From the NCBI GenBank assembly GCA_016932135.1, contig JAFGDJ010000212.1, forward strand, positions 1 through 52,612: 52,612 bases of DNA, read 5' to 3'. The notes under the pieces are model-generated. The model searched no databases. It worked only from the letters and a program-made list of their open reading frames with translations, and was not told the DNA's origin. Positions 8,653-42,184 of this stretch are shown one piece after another. Origin of the DNA: Spirochaetales bacterium (lineage in GTDB: Bacteria; Spirochaetota; Spirochaetia; JAFGDJ01). The position numbers and the translations under genes are program-made. Every line of letters starts with the position of its first letter. The first letter of the stretch is position 1.

Positions 8653-9981
8653 ATGTCAAGACATAACGCAAAAAGAGAGGTCCTTGCCTTTTCCATGGAA
8701 GCGCAAAGCACGATTTGTCCCTATCCCCCCCTGCTTTCTCCGTCCTGGCAGGATCGGATGGATCAGCTGACCGGTTCCAGGGAATTGCCGGCGGAATCGG
8801 TGGAAATTCTCTATGAACAAAACAGAGCCTATCAGGTCTGGAAAGAAACCCTTCTGAAAGCAGAAAAGTCGATTCGTCTTTATACCTACTACCTCCGGGC
8901 GAAAGGCCCTGTGGGAAAAGAACTGGTTTCTCTGCTGGAAAAGAAAGCCCGGCAGGGCCTGACGGTCCGGATTATCGCCGCTCGGTATGCCCAGATGGCC
9001 TGCGACCCGCGGGCTGTTCATCGTCTTCGAAAAGCCGGGGCTGAGGTTCTTCTGGTGGGGAATATCTCGCCTCCCTTTTTTGGCTTCAGCCGAAAAAGGA
9101 AGCGGCACCGCCTGGTGGCGCCCCTGCCCGAAGGAATTCATCGAAAAGAACGGCGGACCGCCACGGGCATACTGATCGATTTTTCCCTCCACATTAAAAC
9201 CCTTCTGGTAGACCACACCACGGCCTTAGTCGGTGGAAGAAATATCAACGATAACTATTTTACCTCCTGGGAAGACACTGATCTTTTCATTACCGGTCCC
9301 GTGGCCGCCGAACTGACCAGGCGGTTTGACATTGAATTCAGTCTTTTCAGCGGCGGTGATGGTACGAAGGAAGAGATCCCTGCACCTCGGGAGAGGGAAA
9401 AGCTTCCGGGCCTTCGGTGCATTATTTCCAACCCCTGGGAGCAATCCTACGAAACCCTGGCCGCCCTTATCCACGCGGTAAGGGCAGCTGAAAAGAGTAT
9501 CCACATTGTAACCCAGTACGTCATTCCTCCTCGCGCCCTGCTGGAGGCCCTGGAAGCGGCGGCCCGGCGGGGGGTGGACATCCACATCATCACTAATTCC
9601 CGGGCTTCCGGAAAAGCCGTAGCCGGGGGGCTTTGCTGGTATCTTTCGTCCAACTGGTATGGGGCTTTACTGCGGCAGGGAATCCATATCCATGAATGGA
9701 AGGGTCTGGAAAAACTTACCTATCTGCATACGAAACTGTTCCTGGTGGACCGCCGCTGGCTGGCCATAGGGTCCTTCAATCTTTCGGTCCGCAGCGCCTA
9801 CCTGGAATCGGAGATTCTCTGTGCCCTGTATGAAAATCCCCATATTGAGGAAGCCGGAAACCTTCTGGATGACTATCTCAACCGCGGCAGTACCGAGGTG
9901 ACCCTTGAGGACCTTCGCCGAACATCCCTTTCAACCAGGATCATAACGAAAGCCGCCCTGTTTTTCCGCCTCTACTACTGA
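8653..9981 (+). CDS. cardiolipin synthase-like phospholipase D family protein, 442 aa
   Basis: Two HKD motifs: HIKTLLVD (about 180-187, followed by GGRNINDNYF) and HTKLFLVD (about 359-366, followed by GSFNLSVRS). This pair is the active site of phospholipase D enzymes such as ClsB/ClsC, which make cardiolipin; other PLD-family phosphatidyltransferase roles are possible. There are no obvious membrane helices. The start is uncertain: ATG 8653 (MSRHNAK) lies 7 nt after a TATTAT box, and ATG 8695 (MEAQST) has a distant AGAGG. The position beside psd-pssA fits a phospholipid role. Confidence 0.8.
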   Translation: MSRHNAKREVLAFSMEAQSTICPYPPLLSPSWQDRMDQLTGSRELPAESVEILYEQNRAYQVWKETLLKAEKSIRLYTYYLRAKGPVGKELVSLLEKKARQGLTVRIIAARYAQMACDPRAVHRLRKAGAEVLLVGNISPPFFGFSRKRKRHRLVAPLPEGIHRKERRTATGILIDFSLHIKTLLVDHTTALVGGRNINDNYFTSWEDTDLFITGPVAAELTRRFDIEFSLFSGGDGTKEEIPAPREREKLPGLRCIISNPWEQSYETLAALIHAVRAAEKSIHIVTQYVIPPRALLEALEAAARRGVDIHIITNSRASGKAVAGGLCWYLSSNWYGALLRQGIHIHEWKGLEKLTYLHTKLFLVDRRWLAIGSFNLSVRSAYLESEILCALYENPHIEEAGNLLDDYLNRGSTEVTLEDLRRTSLSTRIITKAALFFRLYY

Positions 9982-10033
9982 TTTCATTCCTTCCCATCCA
10001 CCCCTCCTCCCGGGCTGTACCGGGAAAATCCTT

Positions 10034-10053
10034 TACTTTGGGAAAACAAAGTA
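10034..10053. repeat. inverted repeat upstream of ftsH
   Basis: TACTTTG, six nt, CAAAGTA: perfect 7-bp arms. It overlaps a weak promoter (TTGGGA 10038-10043, 16 nt, TAAATA 10060-10065), so it may be an operator. It does not match the CIRCE element of HrcA. Confidence 0.45.
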
Positions 10054-10065
10054 CTACCTTAAATA

Positions 10066-10082
10066 AGGGGAAAAGCCCCTTG
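10066..10082 (+). promoter_or_regulatory. short hairpin next to the ftsH ribosome site
   Basis: AAGGGG and CCCCTT pair around a short A-rich loop, ending about 8 nt before the ATG and directly abutting the GGAG ribosome site. It could influence translation of ftsH, but the stem is only 6 bp and this is speculative. Confidence 0.35.
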
Positions 10083-10090
10083 GAGATAGC

Positions 10091-12034
10091 ATGAAAGACA
10101 ACGAAGACGACAACAGGCTTCAAGCCAACAAGAAAAAAGACGACGACTGCTGGAATAAAAAGGGCAAGGATTGCGGTCCCCAAAGGAACGACAATCCCTT
10201 CTCGTTTTTTAAAGGCGGTAAATTTAAATTTTCCGCCTGGTATTTTTTTATCGCCCTGCTGATTCTGATGTTCCTCAACACCTTTCTGGCTCAGCAGCGG
10301 ATGGCCTCCACGGTGAGTTTCAGCGAATTCAAACAGCTGGTAAGGGATGGGCAGATCACCCAGGTGCAACTGAGTCCCGATTTCTACTACGGCCGAGGCA
10401 CCTCGGCGGATGGAGAAAGCGGCGGTATCACTTACCGAACCGTGCCGGTGGAGGATCCCGGCTTTATTCCCCTGCTGGACGAGGAAGGGATCAGCTATTC
10501 GGCGGTATCCCAGCGGGGAACCAATATGCTCAGCACCCTCATCTCCTGGATACTCCCCCTGGTGCTGCTGATTTTTGTCTGGCGGCTGATGTTTAAGCGC
10601 ATGGGCAACATGGGTTCCGACGTCATGACCTTCGGAAAGAACCGCTCTCAGATCGTGGCCGAGGGGCAGACCGGCGTAACCTTTGCCGACGTGGCCGGGG
10701 CGGACGAAGCCAAGGAAGAACTGGAAGAAGTGGTGGATTTTCTGAAAAATCCCCGAAAATACACCGTCATCGGCGGTAAGGTTCCCAAGGGAGTCCTCCT
10801 GGTGGGGTCCCCCGGCACGGGGAAGACCCTTCTGGCCAGGGCCGTGGCGGGAAACGCGGGAGTTCCCTTTTTCCGGATGAGCGGCGCCGACTTTGTGGAG
10901 ATGTTCGTCGGTGTGGGTGCCGCCCGGGTACGGGATCTTTTTAAACAGGCCCGGGAAAAGGCCCCCTGTATCGTTTTTATCGACGAGTTGGATGCCATTG
11001 GAAAAAGCCGCCTGCAGGTGGCCGCGGGCAACGATGAACGGGAGCAAACCTTGAATCAGCTCCTGGTGGAGATGGACGGATTCGACGCCACCACGGGGGT
11101 GATTATTCTGGCGGCCACCAACAGACCCGAGGTGCTGGACCCGGCTCTCCTGCGGCCCGGCAGGTTCGACCGGCAGATCGTGGTGGACAAGCCCGACCTG
11201 GAGGGGCGGGAAGCCATTCTGAAGATCCATTCCAAAGACGTAAAGCTGGCCAAAACAGTGAACCTTCGGGAGATCGCCAAGGCGACCCCCGGCTTTGTGG
11301 GGGCCGACCTGGCCAACGTGATCAACGAAGCCGCTCTGCTGGCGGTCCGATCGGGAAGAACCGAGGTGCTCCAGGAGGACCTGCAGGAGGCCATCGAAAA
11401 AGCCGTGGCGGGGCTGAAAAAGAAAAACCGCCTGATCAATCCCAAGGAACGGGAGATTGTGGCCTACCATGAAACAGGTCACGCCCTCACCGCCGCCTTC
11501 ACCGAAGGAGCCGATCCGGTGCAGAAGATCACCATTGTTCCCCGGGGTATCGGGGCCTTGGGCTACACCATGCAGACCCCGGTGGAAGACCGTTACCTCA
11601 TGACGGAGGAAGAACTGCTCGGGAAGATCGACGTTCTTCTCGGCGGCCGGGCGGCGGAAAAAGTGAAGTACGGCAGCATCTCCACCGGCGCGGCCAATGA
11701 CCTCTCCCGGGCTACGGACATCGCCAGAAAGATGGTCACCGATTACGGCATGAGCGACAAGTTTCATAACGTCGCCCTGACAAAACAGGCCAACCCCTTC
11801 TTAGGGGATACCGGGCAGGCCATGATGAGCAGGGAATACTCCGAGGACACTCAGACCTATGTGGACCAGGAGATCGCCCGGATTGTAGCCCAGCGGTACG
11901 ACCGGGTGGTGAAACTCCTGGAATCGAAACAGGACACCCTGGAAGCCGTGGCCCAAAGACTTCTGGAAAAGGAAACCCTGGAAGCCGCGGAATTCGCCTC
12001 CATGACCGGCCTGAAAGAAAAACAGGCTCTTTAA
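10091..12034 (+). CDS. ftsH: ATP-dependent zinc metalloprotease FtsH
   Basis: Membrane-anchored AAA+ protease for quality control of membrane and regulatory proteins. An unusually charged N-terminus (about 40 residues rich in Asp, Asn and Lys) precedes TM1 (about 47-66), a periplasmic domain, and TM2 (about 145-168). The AAA module has Walker A GSPGTGKT (near 238-245) and Walker B FIDELDAI. The zinc site is HETGH (near 460), with the third ligand Asp in [10 protein letters not shown] near 535. Length 647 aa is typical. It is monocistronic, followed by a hairpin shared with ilvY. Confidence 0.96.
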
Positions 12035-26778: not shown

Positions 26779-27327
26779 ATGGGGAAAAAGATCTATTTTT
26801 TAGGAATGAAAAGCTGCGGAAAAACTACAGTGGGTGCCCGGGTCGCCGAAGCCCTGGCTTTGCCTTTTATCGACCTGGACGACGTTCTCCTTCGCCTGGC
26901 GGAAGAAGAAACGGGAGAGCCTTTTGCTTCCTGCCGGGAGGCCTATAAAAGCCTGGGGAAGGAAGCCTTCCGCCGTCTGGAAGCCCTGGCGGCGGGGGAA
27001 CTGGCTTCGAAGGATATTCCGGAAATCTGCGCTTTAGGAGGCGGAACGGTGGAAAACCCGGAGGCCCGGCGGGCTCTGGAAGGGACCGGATTCTTCGTCT
27101 ATCTTCGGGAATCTCCCGATATTCTCTACCGTCGTATTTCCTCCCGGGGTATTCCCGCCTTTCTGGATCCACAAAACCCGGAAGATGCTTTTTACCGCCT
27201 CTTTGAAAAACGGGAAAAGGATTACAGCGCCCTGGCCACCATCACGCTGGATTGCCGGGGCAGAGCGGCTGCGCCCGTGGCGGAAGAGGTGCTGACCCGA
27301 TTGAAGGAGGCCGGGTATGGGGGCTAA
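26779..27327 (+). CDS. aroK: shikimate kinase
   Basis: Phosphorylates shikimate at the 3-OH. Walker [10 protein letters not shown] (about 9-17), the shikimate-binding FIDLDD segment near 31-36, and [11 protein letters not shown] (near 86-96) are typical. Length 182 aa. Its stop overlaps aroC by 11 nt, so the last steps of the pathway are coupled. Confidence 0.93.
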
Positions 27328-28387
27328 CACCTTCGGGACGATCTTTCGTGTTACCACTTTCGGAGAATCTCACGGACCTGCCCTGGGTGCGGTCCTTGAT
27401 GGGGTTCCTCCCAGGCTGCCCCTGACAACGGAAGATATTCAAAAAGACCTGGACCGCCGAAAACCCGGGGGATCACCGGTGTCAACCCCCCGGAAAGAAG
27501 AGGACCGGGTGGAGATTCTCTCCGGCGTGTTTGAAGGTTTTACCACCGGCACACCCCTTGCCCTGCTGATCAGAAACCGGGACGCCCGCCCGGAAGCCTA
27601 CGATGAGCTGAAGGATCTTTTCAGACCCTCCCACGCGGACAGAACCTACCTGGAGAAATACGGTATCCGGGATCACCGTGGAGGCGGAAGAGCCAGCGGC
27701 CGGGAAACCGCCGCCCGGGTGGCCGCCGGAGCGGTGGCGAAAAAATTTCTCAGCCTTCGGGGTATTTCCCTCCGGGGCTACACCCTGGAAGCTGGGGGAA
27801 TCCGATGCGCCTCCTTCGATGAAAGGGTCATCGACGACAACCCCCTGTACGCTCCGGACAGCCGGGCGGCGGAAAAGATGCTCAAGACCATCGGCCGCCT
27901 GGCCGAGGAGGGGGACAGCGCCGGGGGTATCGTGGAGTGCCGGATTACCGGTTGCCCGGCGGGCCTGGGAGAACCGGTCTTCGACAAACTGGACGCGGAC
28001 CTGGCCAAGGCGATGCTGTCCATCGGATCGGTAAAAGGAGTGGAATTCGGCAGCGGGTTCGCCTGTGCTCTCATGCGTGGAAGCGGCCATAACGACAAAA
28101 TGAACGCCTCCGGGTATCTTTCCAATAATGCCGGGGGTATTCTCGGAGGAATCTCCACGGGTCAGGATATCCTTTTCCGAATAGCGGTAAAACCTACACC
28201 CTCCATAAGGCTTCCGCAAGCAACGGTGGATACCTCAGGATCGGAACGGGAAATTTCCATCCAGGGAAGGCACGACGCCTGCATATGCCCGAGGATTGTC
28301 CCCGTGGTGGAAGCCATGGCGGCCCTGGTCCTGGCAGACCATCTGCTGCGCTCCGCCGCCTCGATTTCCCTGGATCAGACCGAATAG
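27317..28387 (+). CDS. aroC: chorismate synthase
   Basis: Converts EPSP to chorismate with reduced FMN. The signature [20 protein letters not shown] (about 9-28), [18 protein letters not shown] (about 118-135) and [10 protein letters not shown]-like segment (GSGHNDKMN) are present. Length 356 aa matches the family. It ends 13 nt inside the 3' end of the opposite glycosyltransferase gene. Confidence 0.95.
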
Positions 28388-36421: not shown

Positions 36422-36490
36422 AGTCTTTCGTCATTTGTCCTGGAGTGAGTCTGTATGATAGTCAATAAGATCATTTTATGGAAGCAACCC

Positions 36491-36519
36491 TTGCTTTTTT
36501 TCATTTCCAATACTACCCT
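36491..36519 (+). promoter_or_regulatory. possible promoter of the XPB gene
   Basis: TTGCTT (36491-36496), 17 nt, TACCCT (36514-36519). The likely start ATG is only 12 nt downstream and has no ribosome site. The -10 box is weak. Confidence 0.4.
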
Positions 36520-36531
36520 TTCCCGTTGACT

Positions 36532-38226
36532 ATGAAGAATACACCCCTGATTGTACAGAGCGACGGCAGCCTTCTTCTGGACGTCCATGCCGAAGGTTTC
36601 GAAGAGGCCCGGGCGGACATTTCCCCTTTCGCGGAGCTGGAAAAGTCGCCGGAGCATATCCATACCTACCGGATCACTTCCCTTTCCCTCTGGAACGCTT
36701 CCTCCGCCGGAATAACCGGTGAAAAGGTTCTTCACACCCTGGAAGAGTGGTCCCGCTACGAGGTCCCCGATAACATCTCTTTTCTCGTGAAAGAAACCAT
36801 GGCTCGTTTCGGCGTTGTTACCCTGGTTCCGGGAGAAAAGGCAGGAGTCTTTCAGCTAAAGGTGGCCGAGGCGGCGGTAAGAAAGGAACTGGAGCATAAC
36901 AGGAAGCTGACGGCTTACCTGACCCCTGAAGGGGACGGCTATACCCTCCCCCTGATTCACCGGGGCACGGTGAAACAACTGCTCCTGGAAGCGGGATATC
37001 CGGCGGACGACCGGATACCCCTTACCACCGGAGATCCCCTGTCCTTCAGCCTTCGCGAAGAAACCCTGCAGGGAGAGGCCTTTTCCTTAAGGGATTACCA
37101 GGAAGACGCCGTTCGAGCCTTTATCGGCGGCGGGCGCCCGGGAACGGGGTACGGGGTGCTAGTGCTGCCCTGCGGAGCGGGGAAGACCCTGGTGGGAATG
37201 AAAGTGATGGAGCAGCTTTCCACCCACACCCTGATCCTGGCCACCAACGTGACGGCGGTTCACCAATGGATTGACGAACTGCTGTCAAGAACCACCTTGA
37301 AAGAGGAAGAGATCGGCGAATATACCGGTTCCAAAAAAGAAATACGCCCGGTTACCATAGCCACCTACCAGGTGCTTACATGGAGACCCGACCGGGAGGG
37401 GGATTTTCCCCATTTCAAGATCTTCAGCGAGAGGAACTGGGGGCTGATTATCTACGATGAGGTGCATCTGCTGCCGGCCCCGGTCTTCCGTATTACCGCG
37501 GAAATTCAGGGAATTCATCGACTGGGACTGACAGCCACCTTGATCCGGGAAGACGGGAAGGAAGGGGATGTCTTTTCGCTGGTGGGACCGAAGCGGTTCG
37601 ACGTTCCCTGGAAAGAGCTGGAATCCAAGGGGTGGATCGCCGAGGCCTATTGCCGGGAAATCCGGGTATCCCTGCCGGAAAAGCTGAAAATCGCCTATGC
37701 CCTGGCGGATAAGCGAGGGAAATTCCGCCTGGCCTCGGAGAACCCTTTAAAAAACCTGATCGCCAAACATATTATCGCCAACCGCCGGGAAGACTCCATC
37801 CTGGTGATCGGTCAATACCTGGACCAATTGAAAAGCATAGCCCAGGAGCTCAAAGCCCCCCTTATCACCGGCAGCACACCCAACGCTCGCCGAGAAGAGA
37901 TCTACAGCCAGTTCCGCCGGGGAAAAGTACCGGTGCTGGTGGTATCCAAGGTGGCAAACTATTCCATCGACCTGCCCGACGCCTCGGTGGCCATCCAGAT
38001 CTCCGGAACCTTCGGATCACGGCAGGAGGAAGCGCAACGGCTGGGCAGAATTCTCAGGCCGAAGGAAAAAAACTCCTGGTTCTACTCTTTGACCACCCGT
38101 TTCTCGGAAGAGGAACACTACGCCATGAAACGTCAGCAGTTTCTCACCGAGCAAGGCTATAAATACCATATCGATGTGTGGGAAGACTCGGAGGACCTGG
38201 AAGAACCTGCGGAAAACCGATTTTAA
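36532..38226 (+). CDS. XPB/Rad25-type DNA helicase, 564 aa
   Basis: Superfamily-2 DNA helicase like the nucleotide-excision repair helicase XPB. The start PLIVQSDGSLLLDVHAEGFEEARADI matches mycobacterial XPB, hence ATG at 36532, not 36478. Motifs: Walker A PCGAGKTLVG (about 211-220), DEVH box (about 309-312), the RED motif in TLIREDGKEGD, and motif VI QRLGRILRPK. Damage-binding N-terminal domain about 1-180. A partner gene follows (see next). It may act in repair or recombination. Confidence 0.9.
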   Translation: MKNTPLIVQSDGSLLLDVHAEGFEEARADISPFAELEKSPEHIHTYRITSLSLWNASSAGITGEKVLHTLEEWSRYEVPDNISFLVKETMARFGVVTLVPGEKAGVFQLKVAEAAVRKELEHNRKLTAYLTPEGDGYTLPLIHRGTVKQLLLEAGYPADDRIPLTTGDPLSFSLREETLQGEAFSLRDYQEDAVRAFIGGGRPGTGYGVLVLPCGAGKTLVGMKVMEQLSTHTLILATNVTAVHQWIDELLSRTTLKEEEIGEYTGSKKEIRPVTIATYQVLTWRPDREGDFPHFKIFSERNWGLIIYDEVHLLPAPVFRITAEIQGIHRLGLTATLIREDGKEGDVFSLVGPKRFDVPWKELESKGWIAEAYCREIRVSLPEKLKIAYALADKRGKFRLASENPLKNLIAKHIIANRREDSILVIGQYLDQLKSIAQELKAPLITGSTPNARREEIYSQFRRGKVPVLVVSKVANYSIDLPDASVAIQISGTFGSRQEEAQRLGRILRPKEKNSWFYSLTTRFSEEEHYAMKRQQFLTEQGYKYHIDVWEDSEDLEEPAENRF

Positions 38227-38252
38227 AAATTCTTTACTCCCCTTCTGCCTTC

Positions 38253-38281
38253 TTGAAGGAAAAGCTCCTTTGTTGTATGCT
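38253..38281 (+). promoter_or_regulatory. possible promoter of the XPB partner gene
   Basis: TTGAAG (38253-38258), 17 nt, TATGCT (38276-38281). The gene therefore may be transcribed separately from the XPB gene as well as with it. Confidence 0.5.
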
Positions 38282-38313
38282 GTTCTGTTACGCCATCCCG
38301 GAGGAAAAACCTT

Positions 38314-40305
38314 ATGGTCGATGATCCTGACGAAGCCTGGAAATCCTCACTGCTGACCCTGCCGGACCAGGTCTTCTTCACCTTGATGAGGAATTATCTG
38401 GGGGGTATCACCACTCCCTTTAACAAACATGACCTCATAGAGAAGCTGACGGTCTTCATGAGAAAAGAAACCATTCAGGAACGGATTATCAGCCTGCTGG
38501 ACGAGAAGGACCGGTTGATCATTAGCCTGGTCTGCGCTCTGGATTCGGTATCTCGAGAGAATTTATATCGGATCACGGCGCATCGCTTTTCCTACGGTTC
38601 GTTTCTCCACCTTTTGGCTTCCCTGCAGGAACGCCTGCTGCTTTACACCTGGGGTTTCCAGGAGACCTTGTATGTACGAATAAACCCCCTTCTGAAACAG
38701 ATACTGGAGAACCGGGTAGCGGGCTTTCCTTCCATCTTTCGCTGTCGGACCGTTGTGACACCGAAATCCCGGGTACCCTGGAGTGAAGGCTTTATTACTG
38801 CCCTGCTGGCCTATGTGCACTGGAGTCCCCAGGCCTTTGAGAGCGACGGAAGTCTTAAAAAGCGCGCTCAAGGGAGCTTTGAAACGGTATTCCCGGGGAT
38901 GCCGGGTAAAACGGTAAAAACCCTGATGGAGGCTCTCCTTTCGCTGCATCTGGTCTACCGACACAATGAACGGTTTCATTTCAGACCGGAGGTTTATCAG
39001 GATTTCCTCCTCCTGCCGGAGGTAAGGCGTAAACAACTCTTCGGCGCCGCCTTTGTCTTTCCCGGAGCCGGTAACCCGGACGAAAGAGAGGCTTCCCGGA
39101 GGGTGTACCACCGTCTGACCACCTCTTTTCCCGATAAAACGGCGGTACACCCGGAAGATTTTAAATCTTATTTACTTACCTGCGGACTTTTCGAGGATCT
39201 TCACCGGGATATGGAAGAAGAAGGGAAAAACCTTTTTTTCCTGGGGGCTTTCCAGAAGGGGAAGGACGGCTGGGTATCCTTTAACCCCGGATTCCGGGAG
39301 TGGATGGGGATCTTCGATCAGGAAGCCGCTGTGTTTCAGGCGAATTTCGACCTTCTTCTACCAGAACACCCCAGGATTCAAGGCCTGGCCTTTGTGCCGG
39401 TCCTCTTTCATCCTGTTCGCTGTGACCGGGCGGCGGAATTCCGTCTGGACCAGGACAGCTTTGTTTCTTTTCTCGATCATGGAGGAACCGCTGAAAAAGC
39501 GGTCGCGGCCTTGTCGGAGCTGACGGCCCATCCTCTCCCGCCCCACGGTGCCACCACTCTGCGGCTTTGGGAGGAAAAATACAGAAGTCTGAGCTTCTAT
39601 TCCGGGAGGATCGTTCGGGTAACCACGGACCTGGCTCCTTTTCTCGATCACTCGCCGGCTTTTCAGGCTCTTGTCAGGGAAACCCTGGCTCCGGGGCTTT
39701 ACTTCCTGGGTGAGGTATCGGAAGAATCCCTGCGAGAGGCTCTAAAAGCAGCGGGGATACATCATCCTCCGGCGCCCCCCTCGACGGTCACCTTGTCATC
39801 CCGCCAGATGCCGGTCTTCCAGGTTGACACGTCCTCTTCTCCCGAAAATCCACTGTTCGAGGCTGCCTGCCCCGAGATAGTACCGTCCCGGGGACGGCCT
39901 CCCTTTCTGGAAGATCTGAAACATTCTCTGCAGGAAAAGAAACTGCTGCAGCCCCTGCACAAGGAGTACCTTCACCGGATAAAAAGGCGGCTTATTCTGG
40001 ATGAAAGCCAGCTCTCCCGGGACCTGGATGCTCCGGGGCAGAAAGAAGCCCGGGGCTTAGATTTTCCGGGAAAACTTCGCCTTATCCAGGAAGCTTTAAA
40101 TCGAACGAACACGCTGCTGGAGATTCCTCTGGAGGCAGGGTCGGAAGAAACGATGATTCTGCAGCCTTTGACCCTGAAAAAGCAAGACAATGAAGAGGTG
40201 CTGCTGGCTTTGATCCTGCCGGAGGGAGAAGAAAGGGAATTCCCCGTAAAGAGATTCCCCCGCATCCGCCTTTTATCCGGATACCTGGTACCCTTGAACG
40301 GTTAA
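38314..40305 (+). CDS. XPB-associated helical/winged-helix protein, 663 aa
   Basis: A long protein with repeated short helices, no signal peptide and no membrane segment. The N-terminal 200 residues look like tandem winged helix units (LLDEKDRLIISLVCALDSVSRENLYRI, then SFLHLLASLQERLLLY). It resembles in position and build the helicase-family partner gene found beside XPB in mycobacteria; in archaea the partner is the nuclease Bax1, but I see no nuclease motif. It follows the XPB stop by 87 nt. GGAGG precedes the ATG. Role: XPB loading or regulation, by inference. Confidence 0.6.
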   Translation: MVDDPDEAWKSSLLTLPDQVFFTLMRNYLGGITTPFNKHDLIEKLTVFMRKETIQERIISLLDEKDRLIISLVCALDSVSRENLYRITAHRFSYGSFLHLLASLQERLLLYTWGFQETLYVRINPLLKQILENRVAGFPSIFRCRTVVTPKSRVPWSEGFITALLAYVHWSPQAFESDGSLKKRAQGSFETVFPGMPGKTVKTLMEALLSLHLVYRHNERFHFRPEVYQDFLLLPEVRRKQLFGAAFVFPGAGNPDEREASRRVYHRLTTSFPDKTAVHPEDFKSYLLTCGLFEDLHRDMEEEGKNLFFLGAFQKGKDGWVSFNPGFREWMGIFDQEAAVFQANFDLLLPEHPRIQGLAFVPVLFHPVRCDRAAEFRLDQDSFVSFLDHGGTAEKAVAALSELTAHPLPPHGATTLRLWEEKYRSLSFYSGRIVRVTTDLAPFLDHSPAFQALVRETLAPGLYFLGEVSEESLREALKAAGIHHPPAPPSTVTLSSRQMPVFQVDTSSSPENPLFEAACPEIVPSRGRPPFLEDLKHSLQEKKLLQPLHKEYLHRIKRRLILDESQLSRDLDAPGQKEARGLDFPGKLRLIQEALNRTNTLLEIPLEAGSEETMILQPLTLKKQDNEEVLLALILPEGEEREFPVKRFPRIRLLSGYLVPLNG

Positions 40306-41747
40306 AGATCCGGCGGGTATTCACGACCGGTGAAAAGGCGGAACTGAAGCACCCCCTGAGCCTTCAACATAGCCAGGCCGTTCATGGTTCTGCAACCCGC
40401 TTCCCGGGCTCTGCGGAGAAAACGGGTTTCTTCCGGATAGTAGATGATATCCACCACGGCCTCACGGCCGCTGAACCGGTAGTCCGGCGCCGGGTCACTT
40501 TCCTCATGGGGATGCATTCCCACACCGGTGGCTTGAATAATCAAAGGGTAATCCCCCTCCCGATGGAAATCCCGCAAGGAACCCCAGGAACAACCATACT
40601 TCTCGGCGCATTGGAGGGCTTTTTCCGTGGTTCGATTGTACACCGTTACATCGGCCCCCCGACTTACCAGGCCGTAGACAATCGCTCCGGCCGCTCCCCC
40701 CGCCCCAAGAACGGCGGTTTTTACGGAAGAAAGACCCCGGGGGAACCAGGAGTCCAGGGAGAAAAGAAACCCCTCCACATCGGTATTGCAGCCCCACCAC
40801 CGATCCCCCCGACGGACCACGGTGTTACAGGATTTCACCGCGGCAACCCCTTCGGTCATCTCATGGAGAAAGGGAAGAACGGCGTTTTTAAAGGGCATGG
40901 TAACCGAAAAACCCCGGATATCCAGCTCCCGGGATAGGCGGAAGAAGGCCTCCGGATCATCCGTGGGGAAAGGCAGATACACGGCTTTCATACCGATGAC
41001 TGAGAATCCGGGGTTGTGAATGGCCGGGGACTTGCTGTGCATCACCGGGTTTCCGATGATTCCGAACACCGCGGTCTCCCGGTCAATCTCCCGGACCCGG
41101 TACAGTTCATCCATAACTTCGACTGGAAACTCATCCTCTCTGTCCGCCGTCACCGCAGCGGTGCAGTAGGTGAAAGCCGCTCCCAGTTTCCCGGCGAGGA
41201 TCCGCGCGGGTGAACCGAAAGCCCCCTCCCCCAGGAGCAGGTATTCATCAATCCCCTCCAGCCGACGGCTCAAGGTCAGCAACTCTTCCTGCTCCCTGGA
41301 GGTTTCTAAGCCCATGACAACCCGGGGGATCTCTCCCCTATCAGCCCGGTCTTTCATCAGAGCCGGAAGTTCCGGAGGAATTTTCCCGCGGCAGTAAAAC
41401 GAGCGGATAATCCGCGTTCCCTTGGCCCGCCCTTGTTCCTCCAGACCCGTGTCCAGGCAGTCGGATTCCAGGTCCAGGTAAGCGTATGAGCCTTTCAAAC
41501 CTTCTTCCAGCAGACTCAGCCTCGTCGGTTCATCGGAGGTACATCCGCCGCCCTCCCGGGCTCTGCGGCATGACAGGATCGCCGGTACGTCCAGCCTCGC
41601 GGGAAAGGAGGCAAGCTCTTCCCGCTGATCCTCCTGAAGATAATCCGCCCTGATCTCCGCCAGGTCGAAATGCCCCTTCAGCTCTTTGAGCAGGGCGATA
41701 TTCTCACCCAGGGTTTTTCCCTGTAAAGAAAGACAAAGAGGAATCAT
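40302..41747 (-). CDS. aroDE: bifunctional 3-dehydroquinate dehydratase (degenerate) / shikimate dehydrogenase
   Basis: Shikimate-pathway fusion. Residues 1-200 resemble type I dehydroquinate dehydratase, keeping EIR (31-33) and CRRAREGG, but the catalytic His is Tyr118 (IIRSFYCR) and the Schiff-base Lys is Arg142 (IPRVVMG), so this half is probably inactive. Residues 226-481 are shikimate dehydrogenase with all key residues: Ser238/Ser240 (SKS), Lys287 (TMPFKN), Asn308, Asp323 (NTD) and a GAGGAAGA Rossmann loop. ATG at 41747 overlaps the preceding stop as TGATG. Both steps sit upstream of aroK in the pathway. Confidence 0.88.
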   Translation of the reverse strand: MIPLCLSLQGKTLGENIALLKELKGHFDLAEIRADYLQEDQREELASFPARLDVPAILSCRRAREGGGCTSDEPTRLSLLEEGLKGSYAYLDLESDCLDTGLEEQGRAKGTRIIRSFYCRGKIPPELPALMKDRADRGEIPRVVMGLETSREQEELLTLSRRLEGIDEYLLLGEGAFGSPARILAGKLGAAFTYCTAAVTADREDEFPVEVMDELYRVREIDRETAVFGIIGNPVMHSKSPAIHNPGFSVIGMKAVYLPFPTDDPEAFFRLSRELDIRGFSVTMPFKNAVLPFLHEMTEGVAAVKSCNTVVRRGDRWWGCNTDVEGFLFSLDSWFPRGLSSVKTAVLGAGGAAGAIVYGLVSRGADVTVYNRTTEKALQCAEKYGCSWGSLRDFHREGDYPLIIQATGVGMHPHEESDPAPDYRFSGREAVVDIIYYPEETRFLRRAREAGCRTMNGLAMLKAQGVLQFRLFTGREYPPDL

Positions 41748-42184
41748 CAAAAATCCGCCCTGTACAGATACAGATCGACCACGACCCCGTCCTTCACCAG
41801 AACCCGCAGACGGACGGGGAAACCGGAATCCGGCAGGTTGAAGACCAGGGAATCCTCCGTTTCACCGAAGGGTTCTCCCAACAGCTCTTCCAGGGAATCC
41901 ACCGGCTCTCCGATGCTCACCCCCGCCAGGGTTCCTTGAGAACGGACCCGTACCTGCCATACCCGGTTCTGAAAAAGAAACAGGGAATAATCCTCACCGT
42001 AACGGAAGACCAGGTCATCCTGCCAGGGTTCATCGCCTCGCAGGGGAAAGACCTCCGTGGGAACACCGCAGGTGTTCCAAAGGGTTGCAAGGTCAAACCC
42101 GAGATAGGCCGCCGGGTCACCCTCCGCGGACAAAAAGCCGGAGATAAAAAGAAGAAGCATAAACAAAAGAGATAGTTTTCTCAT
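41747..42184 (-). CDS. small secreted protein, 145 aa
   Basis: A signal peptide (MRKLSLLFMLLLFISGFLSA) is followed by a soluble beta-rich domain with repeated strands (VWQVRVRSQG, PVRLRVLVKDGVVVDLYLYR). I do not recognise a family. The start codon at 42184 follows a TTGCAA/TACAAT promoter by 6 nt. Its stop overlaps the aroDE start by one base (TGATG), so aroDE is translationally coupled to it. Confidence 0.65.
   Translation of the reverse strand: MRKLSLLFMLLLFISGFLSAEGDPAAYLGFDLATLWNTCGVPTEVFPLRGDEPWQDDLVFRYGEDYSLFLFQNRVWQVRVRSQGTLAGVSIGEPVDSLEELLGEPFGETEDSLVFNLPDSGFPVRLRVLVKDGVVVDLYLYRADF

Follow-up and report, generated by a model that had tools for sequence, protein, structure and literature searches.

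Is a fused AroDE protein still bifunctional when its dehydroquinate dehydratase half carries neither of the two catalytic residues, which enzyme then accounts for the dehydratase step, and why would the altered half be retained? These questions are raised by a gene in a 52,612-nucleotide stretch of DNA from a Spirochaetales bacterium (assembly GCA_016932135.1, contig JAFGDJ010000212.1, forward strand), termed the window in the following. The draft assembly of the window genome consists of 260 contigs and is 82% complete, with 3.5% contamination.

The fused aroDE gene

The gene comprises the following parts:
40302..41747, minus strand: aroDE, fused type I 3-dehydroquinate dehydratase-like domain and shikimate dehydrogenase, 481 aa (Pfam/NCBIfam, AlphaFold2 model, PDB match)
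41151..41735, minus strand: DHquinase_I domain, very probably catalytically degenerate (PF01487, E 1.1e-21 in the genome search)
40302..41066, minus strand, border approximate: shikimate dehydrogenase half (Pfam; residue table)

The aroDE open reading frame (40302-41750, minus strand) is intact, and its natural ATG at 41747 overlaps the TGA of the upstream gene. Pfam places DHquinase_I at residues 6-199 of the protein (6.3e-21) and also recognizes Shikimate_dh_N (3.4e-21), Shikimate_DH and SDH_C, i.e., the AroDE architecture of an N-terminal PF01487 joined to a C-terminal PF08501/PF01488/PF18317. The AlphaFold2 model predicts a confident two-domain fold (pLDDT 94.4), and its top match in the PDB is the Arabidopsis DHQ-SDH structure 2o7s, with a TM score of 0.88 over the full length. 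The two halves fare differently in NCBIfam: the AroE half passes the cut-off (TIGR00507), whereas the AroD half falls far under the aroD cut-off (51 vs 139 bits), which fits a degenerate first half. The family for bifunctional AroDE, NF006802, gives the window protein 160 bits vs a cut-off of 598.

Two genes in the window (36478-40305) converge on aroDE: one for an XPB/RAD25-like helicase, followed by one for a 663-aa protein with a weak match to Helicase_C_3. The latter open reading frame shares 4 bases with the aroDE stop.

Active-site residues of the two halves

The earlier note had placed two substitutions at the catalytic positions of the dehydratase domain. Residues were positioned by phmmer against the PDB and by MAFFT alignment with E. 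coli AroD and about 50 relatives, and both assignments were confirmed, the numbering and coordinates being exact:
41394..41396, minus strand: Tyr118, codon TAC, at the position of E. coli AroD His143 (alignment)
41322..41324, minus strand: Arg142, codon CGG, at the position of the Schiff-base Lys170 (alignment)

In the alignment, the window motifs SFYC and IPRVV pair with SFHDF and IPKAA of the relatives. Thus, of the two residues that define an active type I dehydroquinase, the general acid/base His143 corresponds to Tyr118 and the Schiff-base Lys170 to Arg142. His and Lys were recovered by none of the alignments tried (phmmer, a profile, and MAFFT runs that comprised about 50 and later 176 relatives). 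A further change, which the earlier note did not record, affects the lid or substrate loop, where Ser232/Gln236 are replaced by Asp/Glu. Other residues of E. coli AroD are retained: Glu46 (E31), Arg48 (R33), Arg82 (R61), Glu86 (E65), Asp114 (D92) and Arg213 (R182). The AroE half keeps the catalytic Lys65/Asp102 and the binding residues S14, S16, T61, N86 and Q244 (SSTKNDQ in the residue table), and its motifs are likewise preserved (the substrate-binding Ser/Ser, the VTMPFK Lys, the NTD Asp and the C-terminal Gln), in agreement with the claim that the fused shikimate dehydrogenase is conserved. Judged by its residues, the AroD half is very probably catalytically dead, as had been proposed.

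Could the domain nevertheless act as a dehydroquinase by an altered mechanism, with Tyr118 as general acid/base and no Schiff base? The retained ligand-binding residues E31, R33, R61, E65 and R182 would suit such an enzyme, and Tyr at the His position recurs in nine genomes with type II aroQ, including the window genome. We regard this reading as highly improbable. An Arg in place of the Lys is unable to form a Schiff base, the Ser/Gln pair of the substrate loop is gone, and other aroQ-carrying relatives have Arg, Gln, Cys or Phe where the window protein has Tyr. One base change suffices to turn a His into a Tyr codon, and the recurrence of Tyr thus needs no function. Moreover, the E. coli AroD variant H143Q is inactive (PMC9074039).

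The same single-base distance between Tyr118 and a His codon, in a single draft genome, might point to an assembly or sequencing error. The probability of an error is practically negligible, since two separate codons and the substrate loop are altered, the reading frame is intact and parallel losses occur in many genomes.

Type II dehydroquinase genes in the window genome

The dehydratase domain of aroDE is the sole PF01487 match of the window genome, which thus has no second type I gene. The note had argued that another dehydratase, for example of type II, would be required, and a genome search indeed located two adjacent type II aroQ genes on contig C23. The other genes of the pathway that bear on this step are:
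26779..27327, plus strand: aroK, shikimate kinase (PF01202, 4.4e-28), on the same contig as aroDE
27317..28387, plus strand: aroC, chorismate synthase (PF01264, 2.5e-139)
C23 9881-10345 and 10352-10825: tandem aroQ pair (PF01220, E 6.2e-59 and 2.6e-50; domain matches at 10385-10792 and 9905-10315), whose two products are termed AroQ1 and AroQ2; the assignment of C23 rests on genome binning

The gene aroB is located on contig C95. Given aroB, aroK and aroC, the pathway still calls for a dehydratase, and the genome can supply one of type II. The GC content of C23 is 0.50, compared to 0.54 for the window; the first 5 kb of C23 are window-like, the aroQ end less so. This composition is compatible with a lateral gain of aroQ. 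In view of the composition difference and the draft state of the genome, C23 could in principle be foreign, though its first 5 kb resemble the window.

The two AroQ proteins are not equivalent. AroQ1 contains the catalytic-His motif EVHISN or a close form of it, whereas in AroQ2 the catalytic His is replaced by Phe in nearly all pairs and rarely by Tyr or Thr. AroQ2 is nonetheless well conserved (mean column identity of 82% among ten sequences), and the His-less form was always seen beside AroQ1. AroQ2 resembles either a subunit that obligately pairs with AroQ1 or an enzyme whose chemistry has changed, and a His-less second AroQ may be more unusual than a dead AroD half. In most pairs, as on C23 (9085-9852), aroQ1-aroQ2 is followed by a gene for an AP_endonuc_2 TIM-barrel protein, which might use the same metabolites as the AroQ pair. 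About ten families of the class share the order aroQ1-aroQ2-TIM, as does one SAR324 record, while two Oceanospirillaceae records hold both aroQ genes without the TIM gene. No TIM gene turned up in the genomes with a degenerate or fused AroQ2 (G057, G121, G180). Genomes with a single aroQ (e.g., G052, G161, G258 and G354) have it near aroC and aroE, and mostly near aroB too. Clusters of aroB, aroC, aroE and aroQ occur in several genomes of the class (G354, G258, G052, G161, and G010 on its contig C61).

Upstream of aroQ1, C23 (10883-14861) encodes a TRAP transporter, a second shikimate/quinate dehydrogenase, a glyoxalase-like protein, an Asp/Glu racemase-like protein and one further protein, an arrangement that resembles a cluster for hydroaromatic-acid uptake and utilisation. 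With the transporter and the second dehydrogenase close by, the aroQ genes may be expressed for catabolism, which would speak against the scenario that we prefer (see below). Taken further, the bacterium would make no 3-dehydroquinate (DHQ) de novo and would obtain DHQ and 3-dehydroshikimate (DHS) from imported quinate or shikimate via the C23 proteins, the TIM-barrel protein included, and AroQ would be purely catabolic. We consider this unlikely, as aroB is present in the window genome and in most aroQ-carrying relatives, and many genomes contain the aroQ1-aroQ2(-TIM) core with no such transporter or dehydrogenase in the stretch examined. A quinate-only life style was likewise judged unlikely because of aroB.

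Association of active-site loss with aroQ across the class

A search for related loci with the window protein returned no match; relatives were accordingly taken from a genome search of the class. PF01220 is present in 33 of 395 genomes of the class, and 176 genomes have a readable AroD domain, 20 of them with aroQ and 156 without. The comparison with AroDE proteins of relatives, which the earlier note had suggested, was carried out on this sample. His and/or Lys are lost in 18/20 genomes with aroQ, and clearly lost in only 5/156 genomes without it. The residues at the His and Lys positions of the 18 losses are YK (seven genomes), YR (two), HR (two), and RH, RQ, QH, CR, HH, FK and HM (one each). 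The remaining two aroQ-carrying genomes, G012 and G362, retain His and Lys, yet lack Asp144. Among the 156 genomes without aroQ, 146 keep both residues, two yield fragments in which the Lys is present, and three (G020, G181 and G289) show apparent losses that proved to be alignment artefacts or fragments and were left out of the count. As these 146 relatives retain both residues and the window protein has neither, the loss is not a matter of chance.

Most of the five real losses without aroQ have a distinct context. G099 and G314, both at 99% completeness, have neither aroB nor aroC; here, the whole pathway is being lost. G091 and G156 are 79% and 77% complete, respectively, and the same genus holds genomes with aroQ. 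The last case, G219 (His to Arg, Arg213 to Gln), contains aroB and aroC, and its assembly (94% complete, 8% contamination) yielded no type II aroQ; this exception is unexplained.

Fisher's test for loss vs aroQ gives p 5.6e-18, a value that ignores kinship. The genomes without aroQ deliberately included weak AroD scorers, which biases the sample against the association. On a tree of the AroE half, loss and aroQ each require 14 changes, and the parallel losses span at least ten families of the class. For independent pairs on well supported branches, loss went along with aroQ in 4.2 of 7 and was opposed to it in 0.0 (averages). The kinship-aware pair test is not significant (median p 0.125), the number of pairs being too small.

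Decay and constraint of the two halves

The decay is concentrated in the AroD half. Its profile score is lower in genomes with aroQ (203 vs 260 bits, p 0.003), whereas the scores of the AroE half do not differ significantly (323 vs 343, p 0.19). The catalytic Lys and Asp of AroE are intact in 16 of 18 fusions from aroQ-carrying genomes, including the window genome. In the two exceptions, G258 and G354, the AroE residues have decayed, and aroQ clusters with aroB, aroC and a stand-alone aroE, so that the AroE half of the fusion is redundant too. This pattern is expected if each half decays once its own step is covered elsewhere. G052 and G161 are counter-cases, in which a separate aroE is found near aroQ, yet the Lys and Asp of the fused AroE are retained.

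The dead domains have not simply dissolved. In G027 and G065, AroD is still a full-length open domain despite the loss of catalytic and binding residues. Pairwise dN/dS values for dead AroD halves of relatives are all below 1 (0.29, 0.07, 0.31 and 0.17), and the matching AroE halves yield 0.27, 0.09 and 0.09, with one pair saturated; as these values were obtained by NG86 and several pairs are saturated, they are a rough guide only. In the G027/G065 pair, the AroD half exceeds AroE in dN/dS by a factor of 3.5 (0.31 vs 0.09). Constraint is thus relaxed at most about 3.5-fold and still present, and the fold of the dead domain seems to matter.

The earlier note had called the dehydratase half a structural or channelling remnant. 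The structural part of this proposal fits the folded model and the dN/dS values of the relatives, while nothing favours channelling. A dead barrel with a non-catalytic role, either in helping AroE to dimerise or stay stable or in binding DHQ/DHS as a sensor or docking site, is a possible, if on balance doubtful, refinement and is compatible with the explanation we prefer (see below). In its favour, frame and domain length persist even where all catalytic residues are lost (G027, G065), the dead domains evolve at dN/dS 0.07-0.31, the fold is predicted with confidence, and there is a precedent in QutR, which is derived from AROM, presumably inactive and thought to bind an inducer (PMC10512348). 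Against it stand the faster change of AroD than of AroE in G027/G065 and the loss of substrate-binding Args there. Part of the measured constraint, moreover, may predate the loss or reflect the avoidance of misfolding. Candida albicans grows normally when the dead domain of Aro1 is deleted (PMC9074039), so that even a structural need for such a domain is uncertain.

More speculatively, the dead AroD barrel might bind DHQ/DHS via its conserved Glu and Arg residues and, in the role of a sensor or docking platform, link AroE with an oligomer of AroQ1 and AroQ2. The resulting mixed dehydroquinase-shikimate dehydrogenase complex would combine a pseudo-type I domain with a subunit of pseudo-type II, namely AroQ2 with its Phe in place of His. 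We give this idea very little credence at present.

A probable scenario for the decay of the dehydratase half

We consider it very likely that the AroD half is a pseudoenzyme: AroQ1 encoded on C23 would have taken over the dehydratase step, the type I site would have decayed, and the fusion would have been kept for AroE. The sequence of events may be pictured as follows. A type II aroQ was gained, probably laterally, as part of an aroQ1-aroQ2 cassette, and AroQ1 would then have taken over the dehydration of 3-dehydroquinate, so that the biosynthetic flux presumably runs through this enzyme. Selection on the type I active site would thereby have been removed, allowing the changes of His143 to Tyr and Lys170 to Arg and the loss of the substrate-closing loop. 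Acquisition of AroQ would thus have come first and decay after. The polypeptide would have been retained for the sake of its AroE half, by which 3-dehydroshikimate is still reduced, and the AroD barrel, probably devoid of dehydratase activity, may persist as a folded passenger or a scaffold.

If this scenario is correct, the non-orthologous replacement of one step repeatedly kills one half of a fused enzyme, and the fusion persists. AroD domains of the class range from intact (G012) to fully eroded (G027, G065), a natural series in which the order of acquisition and decay and the reasons why dead domains stay become testable. The label "bifunctional" for AroDE is probably wrong for such genomes, with consequences for metabolic models and for studies of type I dehydroquinase inhibitors.

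Comparison with known systems

A literature search with little subscription coverage, directed at dead AroDE proteins and at the dehydroquinases of spirochaetes, found no description of an inactive AroD half in an AroDE protein of bacteria or of its repeated occurrence. In domain order and in its full-length match, the window protein corresponds to the plant DHQ-SDH enzymes (2gpt, 2o7s) and to bacterial AroDE (NF006802). In the Arabidopsis enzyme, the corresponding positions are occupied by His and Lys, whereas the window protein has neither. AroQ1 carries the motifs of the type II family (PF01220, TIGR01088), and it differs in being encoded in tandem with a His-less AroQ2. AroQ1/AroQ2 are also on record for Ralstonia.

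The fungal proteins QutR/QA-1S, GaaX and TanX, which derive from AROM, also contain DHQase I and SDH domains and are regarded as catalytically inactive (PMC10512348). They act as repressors of transcription and possess a shikimate kinase domain in addition. A QutR-like repressor is improbable for the window protein, which lacks a shikimate kinase-like domain (only PF01487 and SDH domains are found) and retains its SDH residues; its SDH half looks intact, and no regulatory partner was seen.

The closest parallel is Aro1 of Candida albicans, whose DHQase domain lacks activity (His to Gln), with the type II enzyme Dqd1 compensating for it; across Candida species, loss of the dyad accompanies DQD1, and relief of selection by the type II enzyme is the mechanism that has been proposed (PMC9074039). 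The active sites of Candida Aro1 are over 40 A apart, with no obvious tunnels (PMC9074039). Aro1 and the window AroDE share a type I domain within a shikimate-pathway fusion, loss of the dyad, a domain that folds (predicted in the window protein) and the presence of a type II enzyme. As in the Candida case, the type II gene of the window bacterium lies in the same genome, and relatives without such a gene keep the dyad (146/156). The systems differ in that Candida Aro1 is a eukaryotic five-domain protein characterized by assay and genetics, whereas the window AroDE is a bacterial two-domain protein known from its sequence. The principle is known from Candida Aro1, and the AroDE proteins described here are its bacterial and strongly recurrent version.
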